Shown piece by piece: positions 46,439-51,750 of a stretch of DNA of 64,000 nt (positions within the stretch are counted from its first letter, which is position 1; the number at the start of each line of letters is the position of its first letter). The notes under the pieces are model-generated. The model was given only the letters and a program-made list of their open reading frames with translations. It was not told where the DNA came from and made no database searches. The DNA lies in contig JANQPV010000014.1 of assembly GCA_028285305.1 (NCBI GenBank), positions 62,001 through 126,000 on the forward strand, in the 5' to 3' direction. Origin of the DNA: Alphaproteobacteria bacterium (lineage in GTDB: Bacteria > Pseudomonadota > Alphaproteobacteria > SMXP01). The position numbers and the translations under genes are program-made.

Positions 46439-46573
46439 GAAATGCCTAAGACTTGCAACATCAAAGTTGCGTAAAGGCCAAAACGCAGGGCGATGTCCTT
46501 TCGAAAAAGCGGTTTCCCCGGGCCCCTAAACCCACTAGAACGCCCTCCATCAGACACAAAAAGGAGAAGAAAG

Positions 46574-47356
46574 GTGGAACTGAACAGTTCAATTTCGGCT
46601 GTGATTACGGGTGGCGCGTCGGGTCTCGGCGAAGCAACGGCCCGCGAACTTGCCAGCCATGGCGTCAAAGTCGCTTTGTTTGATCTCAATGCAGAGAAGG
46701 GCCCCCAAGTTGCCGAGGAGCTGGGCGGCGTTTTTTGCGAGACCAATGTGACCGATGAGGAGAGCGTGAATGCGGCATTCGCCAAATCGCGAGACGCGAT
46801 CGGGCAAGAACGCATCCTGATCAATTGCGCCGGGACTGGCAATGCGATCAAAACGGCCTCCCGTGACAAAGAAACCGGCGAGATCAAAGAGTTTCCGCTC
46901 AAAGCGTTCGATCTCATTATCCAGATTAACTTGGTTGGGACGTTCCGCTGCATCACCAAGTCGGCGGCGGGCATGTTGTCCCTTGATCCGCTGGAAGGCG
47001 GGGAACGCGGCGCCATCGTCAATACTGGCTCCGTGGCAGCGGAAGACGGCCAGATCGGACAGGCTGCCTATTCGGCCTCCAAAGGCGGTGTTGTTGGCAT
47101 GACGTTGCCGATTGCCCGCGACCTCTCTCGCGAGGGCGTCCGGGTGAACACCATCTTGCCCGGTATTTTCGATACGCCGCTCTTGCAGGGCGCGCCCGAA
47201 CAGGTGAAGCAGGCATTGGGTGCGCAAGTGCCGTTTCCGCCGCGTCTGGGAGACCCGAAGGAGTACGCGTCTCTTGCCCGTGAGATGTGCACCAATGGGT
47301 ACTTTAATGGTGAAACTGTCCGCCTCGATGGCTCTATCCGTATGGCACCGCGGTAA
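46574..47356 (+). CDS. Short-chain dehydrogenase (3-hydroxyacyl-CoA dehydrogenase-like)
   Basis: A 260-residue SDR with the NAD motif TGGASGLG (residues 12-19), an NNAG-equivalent INCAG, the catalytic Ser in NTGSVAAEDGQIGQAAYSASKG with YxxxK, and PGIFDTPLL. It is closest in pattern to HSD17B10-type 3-hydroxy(-2-methyl)acyl-CoA dehydrogenases, which work in fatty-acid or branched-chain oxidation. The start is GTG 46574, with AAGGAGAAG just upstream; an upstream frame from 46493 has no ribosome site. A strong terminator follows at 47376-47411, then the thioesterase gene. Confidence 0.93.
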   Translation: MELNSSISAVITGGASGLGEATARELASHGVKVALFDLNAEKGPQVAEELGGVFCETNVTDEESVNAAFAKSRDAIGQERILINCAGTGNAIKTASRDKETGEIKEFPLKAFDLIIQINLVGTFRCITKSAAGMLSLDPLEGGERGAIVNTGSVAAEDGQIGQAAYSASKGGVVGMTLPIARDLSREGVRVNTILPGIFDTPLLQGAPEQVKQALGAQVPFPPRLGDPKEYASLAREMCTNGYFNGETVRLDGSIRMAPR

Positions 47357-47375
47357 GCGAGTGCAATTGGCTTTG

Positions 47376-47412
47376 ACAAAGGGCTCGCCGGGTGCGAGCC
47401 CTTTGTTTGTTT
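47376..47412 (+). terminator. Strong Rho-independent terminator after the SDR gene
   Basis: ACAAAGGGCTCGC (47376-47388), loop CGGGT, and GCGAGCCCTTTGT (47394-47406) form a perfect 13-bp stem, followed by TTGTTT. It ends only a few bases before AAGGAG, the ribosome site of the thioesterase gene, so it can also act as an attenuator. Confidence 0.85.
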
Positions 47413-47425
47413 AAGGAGCACGTCA

Positions 47426-48235
47426 TTGATCAGTACGCATGACTTTTTGGGCATTCGTGAGGAAGCCGGTCCCTTGCAATGGACATTGCCTGTGCGGGCG
47501 AAGCATACGGGTGGGCGTCAATCTCTCTTTGGAGGTGTTGGTCTGGCTGCGGGCATTCTTGCGATGGAATACGCAACCGGACTGCCGACCTATTGGGCGA
47601 CGGCGCAATACATTTCCACCACGGAGCAACCGCTTGACCTTTCACTGGAGGTCACGCGGCCCGCCCAAGGCCGTTCGATTACCCAAGCGCAAGTGCAGGG
47701 ACGAGAAGGGGAAAACCTCGTCATCAGCATTATGGGGGCACTTGGTAACCGCACAGAACTGTTCTTTAAATGCTGGGATTCCATGCCGGATGCAGGTGCG
47801 CCTGGGCAAGGCGTGCCCGTTGTTCATCAGACGGGGGAAGAACGTCTTCATGACCATATGGAATTGCGCATGGCCAGGGGCATGTTCGGCTTCACAGGCG
47901 ATGGGAAGGCAACCGAGGACGAACGTTCCCTCGTCTGGGTGCGGATGCCCGGTGTACACTTGGACAGAGCGGGGCTTTCGATCTTGGCAGACTATATGCC
48001 GTCTTGTGTTGGCAACGCCCTTGGCCGCCGGGTCCGTTGTTCCAGTCTCGACAATACCATTCGTTTTGCGCAGACCGATACTTCAGAAGGGGATGAATGG
48101 GTCCTTTTGGAAAATCGGGCAGATTATATCGGCAATGGGATTGCCCACGGCCATTGCCTTATGTGGAGCGAAAGCGGGCGGTTGCTTGCGTCCGCAAGCC
48201 AAACCATGTCGGTGTCCGTGATGGACGGTTCATGA
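47426..48235 (+). CDS. TesB-like acyl-CoA thioesterase (double hotdog)
   Basis: A 269-residue acyl-CoA thioesterase. GGVGLAAGILAMEYATGLPTYWATAQYISTTEQPLDLSLEV (about 36-76) is the first hotdog with its GG-loop, and the second begins at DERSLVWVRMP; DNTIRF and ENRADYIGNGIAHGHCLMWSESGRLLASASQ give the C-terminal hotdog. It would release free fatty acids from CoA. The start is TTG 47426 with AAGGAG upstream. The SDR gene terminator sits immediately before it, so it may be expressed separately or by read-through. Related to fatty-acyl metabolism like its neighbour. Confidence 0.88.
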   Translation: MISTHDFLGIREEAGPLQWTLPVRAKHTGGRQSLFGGVGLAAGILAMEYATGLPTYWATAQYISTTEQPLDLSLEVTRPAQGRSITQAQVQGREGENLVISIMGALGNRTELFFKCWDSMPDAGAPGQGVPVVHQTGEERLHDHMELRMARGMFGFTGDGKATEDERSLVWVRMPGVHLDRAGLSILADYMPSCVGNALGRRVRCSSLDNTIRFAQTDTSEGDEWVLLENRADYIGNGIAHGHCLMWSESGRLLASASQTMSVSVMDGS

Positions 48236-48632
48236 GCTCTTCATTGAAGCGCTTTGGGTTACTCTGAGTTCCGTAAGGTTGGCTGACGTTTTATAATACA
48301 ACTCGAAGTGGATTGCGCTTGGTCTCGTGTGCGTGTCTGATGGATTGGGAGATCCGATGGCCAATAATGTGCAGTCGAACTGTCATTTGTTTTGTTACAA
48401 ATTGTTCGAAGTGTTCCATGTGCGTACAATTTGTTGACCGTTTCGCAATACTGGAAAGGAAATTACGCTCTTCGTGAGCTTCGGATGTTGGCAAACGGCC
48501 GGGCGCCGCGTAAATTTAAATGGGAAGAAATTGGGCAGGCCCCGCGTGGAATAGAGGGTCTCCTATATTGGAGCAGTTGTTGGTCGGTCTGGCGACCAAT
48601 CAGTGCACAGATTTAGTAGAGAGGACAAAGCT
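48236..48632. other. Intergenic region upstream of luxR with repeated and palindromic sites
   Basis: This 397-bp gap lacks a supported gene. TATAAT (about 48291-48296) could be a -10 box but its -35 is poor. Two near-identical 11-mers, TACAAATTGTT (48396-48406) and TACAATTTGTT (48425-48435), lie 29 bp apart, about three helical turns. A 26-codon frame with GGGAG upstream (48357-48437) overlaps them but looks accidental. A 20-bp palindrome at 48580-48599 is listed separately. Confidence 0.45.
48580..48599 (+). promoter_or_regulatory. 20-bp lux-box-like palindrome upstream of luxR
   Basis: TTGGTCG-GTCTGG-CGACCAA has perfect 7-bp arms and the 20-bp length of a lux box. It lies 33 bp before the luxR ATG, so it could mediate autoregulation. 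Its sequence differs from the canonical ACCTGT-type lux box. Confidence 0.55.
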
Positions 48633-49364
48633 ATGGACAGGCGGGAGCGGCTGTCGGTGAAGGCTGTGGAGTTCAGTCACGATATTCGGACGAAGAAAAC
48701 CATGGGTGAGCTGACGGATTATACGAAAGAGCACCTAGAAACCTTTGGCATCCGCTATCTCTCCGTGGCGGAAATTAATCCCGATCCCGACGCGATTCTG
48801 CCGAATATCAACGAATATCCCGAGGAATGGGTGCCGTGGCTTCGAAAGTACATGGCGAGCGATCCTATTCTGCATGCGATTATGGATTTCGGTCAAGAAC
48901 CGGTGGTTTGGTCGGATGTGAAGGCTCGATTGGGAGGCAACACCCTGCAAACGAGAATCATGAATGAGGCAGCTGAGTGCGGCCTGGCAGAGGGGGTAAC
49001 CTTCCCAATCACCGGCAAGAATGGATCTCTGTGTGCTATAAATTTCGGGGGGCCCGTTGTTGAGACAGATACTGATGCTCTGTCTGCGCTTAATCTCATC
49101 GGCATGTCTTTGTACCATGCCGCACATACACTCATCAGATCCCGGATTGTTGAAGAAGAAGGGTTTGCGAAGATCACGCCGCGTGAGCGCGAGTGTTTGC
49201 AGTGGGTTGCCATGGGAGAGTCGGATTATCAAATCGCCTACCGGCTTGGCGTTAGTTATCATACCGTGGTTACCCACATCCGGCGAGCAAAGGCGAAACT
49301 AAACGCTTCCAATCGCACAGAAGCAGTGGTTAAAGCGGCTCGCCACCACATCATATTCCTTTAA
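48633..49364 (+). CDS. luxR: LuxR-family quorum-sensing transcription factor
   Basis: A 243-residue LuxR-type regulator. An autoinducer-binding domain (about 17-165) carries the conserved Trp-Asp-Trp-Gly set: WVPWLRKYMASDPI, PVVWSDV and CGLAEGVTFPI. The C-terminal LuxR HTH is ITPRERECLQWVAMGESDYQIAYRLGVSYHTVVTHIRRAKAKL (about 183-225). The spacing from the first Trp to the Asp is two residues shorter than in TraR, and the usual Tyr61 position is not clearly kept, so ligand selectivity may differ. ATG 48633 follows GAGAGGAC. It is upstream of the LuxI gene in the same direction. Confidence 0.93.
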   Translation: MDRRERLSVKAVEFSHDIRTKKTMGELTDYTKEHLETFGIRYLSVAEINPDPDAILPNINEYPEEWVPWLRKYMASDPILHAIMDFGQEPVVWSDVKARLGGNTLQTRIMNEAAECGLAEGVTFPITGKNGSLCAINFGGPVVETDTDALSALNLIGMSLYHAAHTLIRSRIVEEEGFAKITPRERECLQWVAMGESDYQIAYRLGVSYHTVVTHIRRAKAKLNASNRTEAVVKAARHHIIFL

Positions 49365-49379
49365 AAAAATCAGCGCTCG

Positions 49380-49395
49380 TCCCAAAATCTTGGGA
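49380..49395 (+). promoter_or_regulatory. Palindrome between luxR and luxI
   Basis: TCCCAA-AATC-TTGGGA is a perfect 6-bp inverted repeat lying 15 bp after luxR and 61 bp before the luxI ATG. It is not followed by a T-tract, so an operator is more likely than a terminator. Its half-site CCAA/TTGG also occurs in the palindrome before luxR (TTGG...CCAA) with the arms in the opposite order. Confidence 0.45.
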
Positions 49396-49456
49396 TTGTC
49401 ATCGTTTTCAATTTTCTAAAGGCTGGCTTTTGGTCTTTGGGTAAAGGAGTTGGACG

Positions 49457-50137
49457 ATGATTAGAGTAATAGTACCTGATTCGTATGCAGAAAGTATACA
49501 ATTACTTGAGCAATACTATGAATTGCGCCACCGCATATTTGTTGAGCGCCTGGGGTGGAAGGGGCTGACGAGTGTCAGTGGCCGAGAAAAAGACCGTTTT
49601 GATGAGCATCATACGATCTATGCTTTGGCAACCGACGATTCCGGTGAAAATGTCTTAGGGGGCAGTCGCATCAGCCATTCGATGCTGCCCAGTCTGTCAT
49701 CTGATGTATTTCCGCATCTCTTTTCCGGGGTGGGTAGCGTACCTCGTTCAGAGCTGATCTACGACAGTTCGCGTGCGGTCTTGGATCTGGACAATGTCAA
49801 TAAAGCCGACCAAGAGAAGGTCAGCGAGGAGCTTTTCTGCGGTTGTTTTGGCGTTGGTGTCGCGTTGGGCGTGGAAGCCTATACCGGTGTGATGTATATG
49901 TCGGCCATTCAGCACCGGATGTCGGAAGGGATGCGTATTGACGTCCAAGGGCTTCCCGATGGTGAATTATCGAACCAGATTGCCGGAATACTCATTCCAT
50001 ATACTGATGAACAGTTAGACTTCTTGTTTGACTGTTTTGGGCCGATGTTGATGGATTTTTGTGAGCAGTATGGGCCGGAGCTCAGAAAGGCGCATCGTGT
50101 TGCCCTTGAGCTGATCCATGGGAAGGAAGCGGCCTAA
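49457..50137 (+). CDS. luxI: LuxI-family N-acyl-homoserine-lactone synthase
   Basis: A 226-residue AHL synthase, which makes the signal from acyl-ACP or acyl-CoA and S-adenosylmethionine. Conserved residues map well to the family: Arg24, Phe28 and Trp34 (RHRIFVERLGW), Glu44, Asp46 and Asp49 (GREKDRFDE), Arg71 (GGSRIS) and Arg106 (YDSSRAV). The usual Glu three residues before that Arg is Asp103, a conservative change near the substrate pocket. AAAGGAG precedes ATG. Its stop overlaps the PhyH start by one base (TAATG). Confidence 0.93.
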   Translation: MIRVIVPDSYAESIQLLEQYYELRHRIFVERLGWKGLTSVSGREKDRFDEHHTIYALATDDSGENVLGGSRISHSMLPSLSSDVFPHLFSGVGSVPRSELIYDSSRAVLDLDNVNKADQEKVSEELFCGCFGVGVALGVEAYTGVMYMSAIQHRMSEGMRIDVQGLPDGELSNQIAGILIPYTDEQLDFLFDCFGPMLMDFCEQYGPELRKAHRVALELIHGKEAA

Positions 50138-51078
50138 TGGAGATCACGAGATACTCAGCTTCGCATCCTGTCGATGAGATCATCGCCGGGATCGAGGACC
50201 AGGGTGCAGTCATTATCGAGGATTTGGTGCGGCCGACTGTGCTGGAGGTCATTCAATGTTCGGCACAAAACATGCTTGATCGTGTGCCCTGCGGGCACGG
50301 TCAATTCGTCGGCGATCAAACCAAGAGGACGGGTGGTCTGTTGGGAAAAATTCCGCAGACGGCTGATTTGGTCGAAGACGAAAAGATACTGGAGGTGATG
50401 GATTGGTTTTTGGGACCGAACTGTTCGTCTTATCAGCTCCATATCTCGCAAATGATCGCGGTGATGCCCGGCGAAGGACCGCAGATGTTGCACCGGGATG
50501 GGAACATGTTTCCCTACTGTCAGGTCGATGGCGAAAAGATCATGAACGTGATGTGGGCCATCAGTGACTTTACAGCAGACAATGGCGCTACCGAAGTGGT
50601 CTTGGAGAGCAACCATTGGACGGAGGAACGATTTGAAGAAGAGTTTCACTCTCAGAAAGCAGAGACTCTCATCGCCGAGATGAAGGCCGGATCGGCCCTC
50701 ATCTATACAGGCACGCTCGTTCATGGAGCCGGTGCAAACGGGTCTTTGGATCCGCGAATTGGGATTGTGATGGGCTACAATTTGGGCTGGCTCCGGCAGT
50801 ACGAGAATCAATTCCTGTCCGTTCCCTTGGAGCGGGTTCGTGAGCTCTCTCCCCGCGTGCAGCAACTTATGGGATATGAACCGCAGTTTCCTGCGCTTGG
50901 TCTTTTTGAAGGCCGCAGCCCGATGGAATTCATCGCTGAAGGGTTCAGCTCTCAGTTTCATGCCGCGAAGGACGATATGAGTGAGGATGTCGAAGCCGTT
51001 GTGCGGGAAATTGCCGAAAACCGCCGGCAAGCGAAGTGTGCCCGGGAGAGTGCGGGTTTCTTATCTAGTGCTGCGTAA
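50137..51078 (+). CDS. Phytanoyl-CoA dioxygenase (PhyH)-family oxygenase coupled to luxI
   Basis: A 313-residue Fe(II)/2-oxoglutarate oxygenase of the PhyH family. The iron ligands are the H-x-D in QMLHRDGNMFPY (about 118-120) and the distal His in YTGTLVHGAGANGS (about 194); the Arg in DPRIGIVMGYNLGW should bind 2-oxoglutarate. Its ATG overlaps the luxI stop (TAATG), so it is translated with the synthase and probably acts in the same pathway. The simplest inference is hydroxylation of the acyl chain of the AHL or of its precursor. Other substrates remain possible. Confidence 0.9.
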   Translation: MEITRYSASHPVDEIIAGIEDQGAVIIEDLVRPTVLEVIQCSAQNMLDRVPCGHGQFVGDQTKRTGGLLGKIPQTADLVEDEKILEVMDWFLGPNCSSYQLHISQMIAVMPGEGPQMLHRDGNMFPYCQVDGEKIMNVMWAISDFTADNGATEVVLESNHWTEERFEEEFHSQKAETLIAEMKAGSALIYTGTLVHGAGANGSLDPRIGIVMGYNLGWLRQYENQFLSVPLERVRELSPRVQQLMGYEPQFPALGLFEGRSPMEFIAEGFSSQFHAAKDDMSEDVEAVVREIAENRRQAKCARESAGFLSSAA

Positions 51079-51156: not shown

Positions 51157-51750
51157 CTACAGAAATGCTCGCGCGGTGATGGAAATGCGGCGGCCCTTCC
51201 ACTTGCGTTTGGGTACGCCGTGTTTCCAGTGACTGTTCGTATCTTGAAGTGAGAACTTCAGAATGGAGCCATTCCTGAGAGGGATATCAAAGCGGGTATA
51301 GCCTTTGGCGATGTGCGTAAACCGCATGAGCCGGCCTTCACCCAATGTGAGCGTGTAGATATCGGAATCGGGCACAAGGCCGGCTTCTGAATCAGGGTGC
51401 GGACCAATGTAGTGATCCGGTTCGTACCAATTGAGAAGGAGACCGTTCAGACGAGGATCAATCCTTTTCAGACATTGGGCGAGCGGCTCCAAAGGGAGCG
51501 GCAGCGGGGCGGCGGCACTGATCTGGCCGGAAAAGTGGTAGTCCCGCAAATAGGATTGTTGATAGCGGGGAATTGCAACCTCACGCCCATGGATCTTGAT
51601 GACGGGCCGTTCATGCGGGTGGAGGTTCCACAAAAGGTCAAACTCTTCGGTCGAAGGGATAAGCCCCTTGGGCAATTGACTTAGTGCGACTTTGCACCCG
51701 TCAGGGAGCCTTGTCGTTTTCCAAACAAGGGACTCCGTCACGCCGCCCAA
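51157..51750 (-). CDS. AlkB-like Fe(II)/2-oxoglutarate dioxygenase
   Basis: A 197-residue protein of the AlkB-like superfamily. The iron motif is GPHPDSEAGL (H-x-D; the usual HsD context), the distal His is in HWKHGVPKRK and the 2-oxoglutarate Arg pair is in GRRISITARAF at the C-terminus. AlkB proteins repair alkylated DNA/RNA or modify tRNA; this short form lacks a clear nucleotide-recognition lid, so its substrate is uncertain. It starts 13 nt inside the end of the amidase gene, so the two are co-translated. Confidence 0.88.
   Translation of the reverse strand: MGGVTESLVWKTTRLPDGCKVALSQLPKGLIPSTEEFDLLWNLHPHERPVIKIHGREVAIPRYQQSYLRDYHFSGQISAAAPLPLPLEPLAQCLKRIDPRLNGLLLNWYEPDHYIGPHPDSEAGLVPDSDIYTLTLGEGRLMRFTHIAKGYTRFDIPLRNGSILKFSLQDTNSHWKHGVPKRKWKGRRISITARAFL

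Follow-up and report, generated by a model that had tools for sequence, protein, structure and literature searches.

A divergent luxR-luxI-phyH locus with a candidate signal-tailoring oxygenase

Genes for PhyH-family oxygenases next to luxI have been remarked on in the literature since about 2010, with their role left open. The question is raised again by a locus in the window, the term used here for the whole 64-kb stretch of DNA that was analysed. The luxR-luxI-phyH arrangement appears in Hao (2010, as cited in PMC3704786) and has been reported several times from Sphingomonadaceae and metagenome clones (Gan 2013, 2015, 2016; PMC3704786, PMC4288048, PMC5012321), as the initial annotation of this DNA had rightly stated for some alphaproteobacteria. 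In 2016 the PhyH reaction was still said to await description (PMC5012321), and a literature search, with most subscription journals outside its coverage, found no later assignment. Should oxygenases linked to luxI tailor the signal, a second, enzyme-encoded layer would be added to AHL diversity, as with antibiotic tailoring, and many surveys based on biosensors and standards would have missed the true signals.

Organization of the locus

The open reading frames and their coordinates were re-derived, and the gene order, the positions and the one-base overlap initially annotated were all recovered. The features of the locus are the following.

48580-48599, no strand assigned: perfect dyad (7+6+7, TTGGTCG-N6-CGACCAA) ahead of luxR; no more than a lux-box-like candidate
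48633-49364, + strand: luxR, AHL-responsive transcription factor (Pfam Autoind_bind 58.9 bits, GerE 61 bits)
49380-49395, no strand assigned: short dyad TCCCAA-N4-TTGGGA in the luxR-luxI gap; weak candidate for a regulatory site, possibly due to chance
49457-50137, + strand: luxI, AHL synthase of a lineage-specific type, with Asp for the usual Glu (Pfam Autoind_synth 65.7 bits)
50135-50139, + strand: TAATG stop/start overlap of luxI and phyH, with AAGGAAG upstream as a possible ribosome site
50137-51078, + strand: phyH, Fe(II)/2-oxoglutarate (2OG) oxygenase with H119-x-D121, H196 and R207 (Pfam PhyH 88.1 bits)

The Pfam scores of all three proteins were far over the cut-offs, which for Autoind_synth is 24 bits. 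The luxR frame is open from a GTG at 48603, and the ATG at 48633, which is preceded by GAGGAC, is the more likely start. LuxR contains both the Autoind_bind and the GerE domain, and the ligand residues W, Y, D-P, W and G are readable in its translation. In LuxI the conserved R, F, W, D, D, R and R are all retained, while Asp takes the place of the usual Glu (E-x-[ST]-R), a conservative change that is also present in the four nearest LuxI relatives.

The luxI stop codon TAA and the phyH start codon ATG (50137) have one base in common, and luxI-phyH junctions overlap by 4 bp in many relatives. The two genes had been annotated as co-translated; the overlap of the frames stands, and it suggests translational coupling, short of proof. 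Because the genes behind phyH lie on the opposite strand, phyH is the last gene of the unit. A genome-wide search for the dyad upstream of luxR yielded two perfect copies in all, and since the second lies within a gene a regulon is unsupported and the dyad was dropped as evidence. No family was matched in an Rfam search of the window. A short-chain dehydrogenase gene and an acyl-CoA thioesterase-like gene (46493-48235, + strand) are located just upstream of luxR on the same strand, and a second 2OG-Fe(II) oxygenase gene (51157-51750, - strand; 2OG-FeII_Oxy_2 family, AlkB-like), probably unrelated, is convergent to phyH.

The locus has the gene order and the close or overlapping junction of the sphingomonad luxR-luxI-phyH loci. 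With novR-novI-phyH and the 'topology T' loci (luxR-luxR-luxI-phyH) of Sphingomonadaceae it shares gene order, strand, a near or overlapping luxI-phyH junction and the PhyH superfamily; it differs from them in that its LuxI belongs to another LuxI lineage, together with the genome's own paralogues, and in that its PhyH is divergent. The window locus is a new, divergent member of the known arrangement. A tree of 141 LuxI proteins placed the window LuxI with the two other LuxIs of the same genome and with two others (98% local support), and no other member of this group has a phyH gene. As the window LuxI clusters with LuxIs that lack phyH, the gene would have come to this LuxI lineage independently of the sphingomonad cassette, which is the simplest reading of the tree.

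Relatives of the PhyH enzyme and its candidate substrates

The HxD motif and distal His of the oxygenase had been reported as intact, which the alignment bears out: H119, D121, H196 and R207, the last of which binds 2OG, are present, and none of them varies among the 63 other luxI-linked PhyHs. With PF05721 over cut-off, the HxD...H triad and the 2OG Arg, the protein is a PhyH-superfamily Fe/2OG oxygenase. The AlphaFold2 model was confident (pLDDT 89.6, pTM 0.86), and the closest solved folds to this predicted structure were the Fe/2OG oxygenases PrhA, TlxJ, SptF, AndA, DhiD, AsqJ and OkaE. A profile of the luxI-linked PhyHs matched SwnH1, DhiD, PrhA, AndA and SptF at E values of 1e-45 to 1e-39, and also SwnH2, while human phytanoyl-CoA hydroxylase (PHYH) was matched at only 4e-7 over ~95 residues. 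In the test for a close relationship to PHYH, the window PhyH as a single query gave no match at E<=1. Human PHYH and the window protein have in common the Pfam family PF05721 and the Fe/2OG centre; however, the match of human PHYH to the window PhyH family is partial and remote, and CoA-thioester chemistry is not to be assumed. An identity as PHYH proper, a CoA-thioester alpha-hydroxylase, was considered for the window PhyH and rejected on these results.

SwnH1/SwnH2, DhiD, PrhA/AusE, AndA, SptF and AsqJ resemble the window PhyH in fold and in Fe and 2OG ligands, at ~20-28% identity in structural alignments. These enzymes act on alkaloids or terpenoids, and we know of none in a quorum-sensing operon. 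Since the closest enzymes of solved structure hydroxylate natural products in free form, membership of the family does not imply hydroxylation beside a thioester, and the initial argument from PhyH chemistry to a position next to the carbonyl or thioester is not borne out. A free AHL would be a reasonable substrate.

The oxygenase might instead act before LuxI, hydroxylating the acyl-CoA or acyl-ACP donor which LuxI then uses. The solved proteins nearest to the window LuxI are 5w8c (BjaI), 6wn0 (RpaI) and 6wns; BjaI and RpaI use acyl- or aryl-CoA, and the founding PhyH enzyme acts on a CoA thioester, all of which would fit a modified donor. However, the window PhyH is far from human PHYH, its solved relatives take free molecules, and the nearness of LuxI to BjaI and RpaI may only reflect shared class. 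Donor hydroxylation is considered unlikely.

The window PhyH lies on a long branch and shares no more than 45% identity with any other sequence in the PhyH tree. Its placement inside the luxI-linked clade was neither supported nor rejected (AU p 0.508). It has 12 of the 38 residues typical of luxI-linked PhyHs, where linked proteins have 17-21 and unlinked proteins 4-6. Four genomes of the same taxonomic family were searched, and one of them (G003) gave a match, a distant homologue with 32% identity.

Distribution of phyH genes beside luxI

The initial annotation had proposed a count of luxI-PhyH neighbours across genomes, and this was carried out. A profile built from four PhyHs linked to luxI was run against the genomes of 84,980 species, and the best 80 loci were kept; luxI was nearby in 61 of these 80, a sample that is enriched for luxI linkage as the profile itself derives from luxI-linked proteins. 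The window PhyH alone as query in genome contigs gave no match, and the four-protein alignment was needed. The linked loci have the orders luxR-luxI-phyH, phyH-luxR-luxI and divergent, which shows that luxI and phyH stay together through rearrangement. Conjugative plasmids of Sphingobium and Variovorax also carry luxI-phyH. No luxI lies near some of the close PhyH relatives (Chromobacterium, Paludibacterium); when these and other luxI-free neighbourhoods were read for a clue to the substrate, the neighbours were mixed (phosphoesterase, CoA transferase) and gave no lead.

A class sample of 386 evenly chosen genomes of Alphaproteobacteria, 64 of them with luxI, allowed about 80 luxI loci to be read. 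A PhyH gene adjoined luxI at five loci against 0.22 expected (Poisson p 4e-6). Four of the five genes are of the window type, while the fifth belongs to a PhyH subfamily unrelated to it and sits directly behind luxI in genome G127 (L102). In a second sample phyH was present at nine of the 10 luxI loci of Sphingomonadaceae (family assignment inferred) and at one other alphaproteobacterial locus. Among 20 luxI loci of non-alphaproteobacterial classes, neither a PhyH of the window type nor a P450 was found (0/20 each). The sole PhyH gene of one genome (G384) adjoins luxI.

These counts bear on whether phyH could be a chance neighbour of luxI with no functional link. The 5.4-Mb draft genome carrying the window has 12 PhyH and three luxI genes, which makes an accidental meeting conceivable; yet the frames overlap and PhyH is strongly enriched beside luxI, and chance is considered a most improbable explanation.

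Two further arrangements were observed. On the Methylocystis iwaonis plasmid pSS37A-Re-2 a 3' remnant of luxI lies by an IS21 element and is followed by an overlapping phyH (L204:3597-3977); this is a broken luxI-phyH cassette. In L067 (G008) and L186 a double system, luxR-luxI-phyH-luxR-luxI, places one phyH between two distinct LuxI lineages.

Cytochrome P450 genes beside luxI and proposed signal tailoring

Of the 75 genes that immediately follow luxI in the class sample, more belong to the P450 family (8) than to any other, with PhyH second (4). Over the whole neighbourhood, P450 adjoined luxI at 12 luxI loci against 0.44 expected, these 12 including four of one genus code and covering nine family codes. 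The P450 gene was directly beside luxI in L045, L047, L049, L051, L066, L068, L074, L080, L083, L100 and L105, and the frames of luxI and P450 overlap in L074 and L105. At one locus (L096:2827-4884; G148:C61) a single ORF of 686 residues comprises a P450 (residues 30-457) and an Autoind_synth domain (481-628). This fusion recurs, 96% identical, in L214 (G399:C244); the ORFs, of 686-699 residues, are uninterrupted and both genomes have one genus code. P450 and PhyH were both present at four luxI loci (L142, L152, L173 and L188), and in G047, G212, G295 and G305 the sole P450 of the genome adjoins luxI. The luxI-P450 loci (L051, L074, L096, L105) resemble the window in that an oxygenase follows LuxI directly, overlaps it or is fused to it, but the enzyme is a cytochrome P450 instead of an Fe/2OG oxygenase and the lineages are others. 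No report of luxI-P450 loci or of a P450-LuxI fusion was found in the literature search, which left most subscription journals outside its coverage; the pattern appears to be new here, although this is not certain.

An alternative is that phyH is an output gene under quorum-sensing control, modifying another metabolite and lying in the luxI operon only for induction at high density. Quorum-sensing regulation of phyH was proposed by Hao et al. (2010, as cited in PMC3704786) from transposon data and the short spacing of the genes. The PhyH relatives are mostly natural-product hydroxylases, and the operon is explicable by co-regulation alone. Against this, a single output gene would have to track luxI through numerous lineages and gene orders even as the other neighbours vary, and an unrelated oxygenase family, P450, behaves alike and is fused to LuxI. 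This alternative is thought rather improbable, although it is the strongest of those considered.

Oxygenases of two unrelated superfamilies have convergently come to accompany luxI, and one of them is fused to the synthase; together these favour oxidative tailoring of the AHL over a separate output and are our main reason for the preference. We consider it somewhat probable that the oxygenase of the locus is dedicated to tailoring the signal of its LuxR-LuxI quorum-sensing system. LuxI would make an AHL; the co-produced PhyH would hydroxylate it on the acyl chain, with the finished AHL a more likely substrate than an acyl-CoA or acyl-ACP donor; and the adjacent LuxR would then read a more polar, lineage-specific signal. 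The initial proposal of a signal-tailoring system is favoured by the conserved link, the recruitment of PhyH and P450 and the fusion, while its argument from thioester chemistry is not supported. The wider oxygenase-luxI pattern makes the idea testable, and the P450-LuxI fusion offers a direct experimental entry to it.

Published chemistry bears on tailoring in both directions. Novosphingobium subterraneum has a phyH beside each luxI, and the AHLs found are of the C8, 3-OH-C8 and 3-OH-C10 types, which are also produced by luxI alone in Agrobacterium (PMC5012321); PhyH is not required for the 3-OH groups in that species, and the persistence of ordinary AHLs despite phyH counts against tailoring. 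The placement of the window PhyH with respect to the luxI-linked clade and the luxI-free close relatives in Chromobacterium and Paludibacterium were counted against it also. Polyhydroxylated AHLs have been reported from a marine alphaproteobacterium, and a P450 was proposed there to account for them (PMC5479921).

P450 enzymes are known to alter AHL signals by oxidation (Chowdhary 2007, as cited in PMC5479921), and PhyH might similarly inactivate or age the signal, a built-in turnover giving pulses instead of a new signal. However, an oxygenase made in one unit with the synthase would destroy the signal during its making, and no separate control is visible at the locus; turnover is regarded as very unlikely.

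Beyond the window, tailoring may be general. It is tentatively proposed that alphaproteobacterial AHL systems commonly carry a dedicated post-synthase oxygenase (PhyH or P450, sometimes both, sometimes fused to LuxI), that many signals of the class are oxidised AHLs missed by standard-based assays, and that the window locus, with a LuxI lineage of its own, is one example that was assembled independently; we hold this with less assurance than the reading of the locus itself.

Small ORFs of 71-87 aa with no Pfam match were also seen directly behind luxI in relatives (L071:2589-2849, L094:2676-2888 and L051:2642-2884), and possibly represent a recurring luxI-linked small protein.
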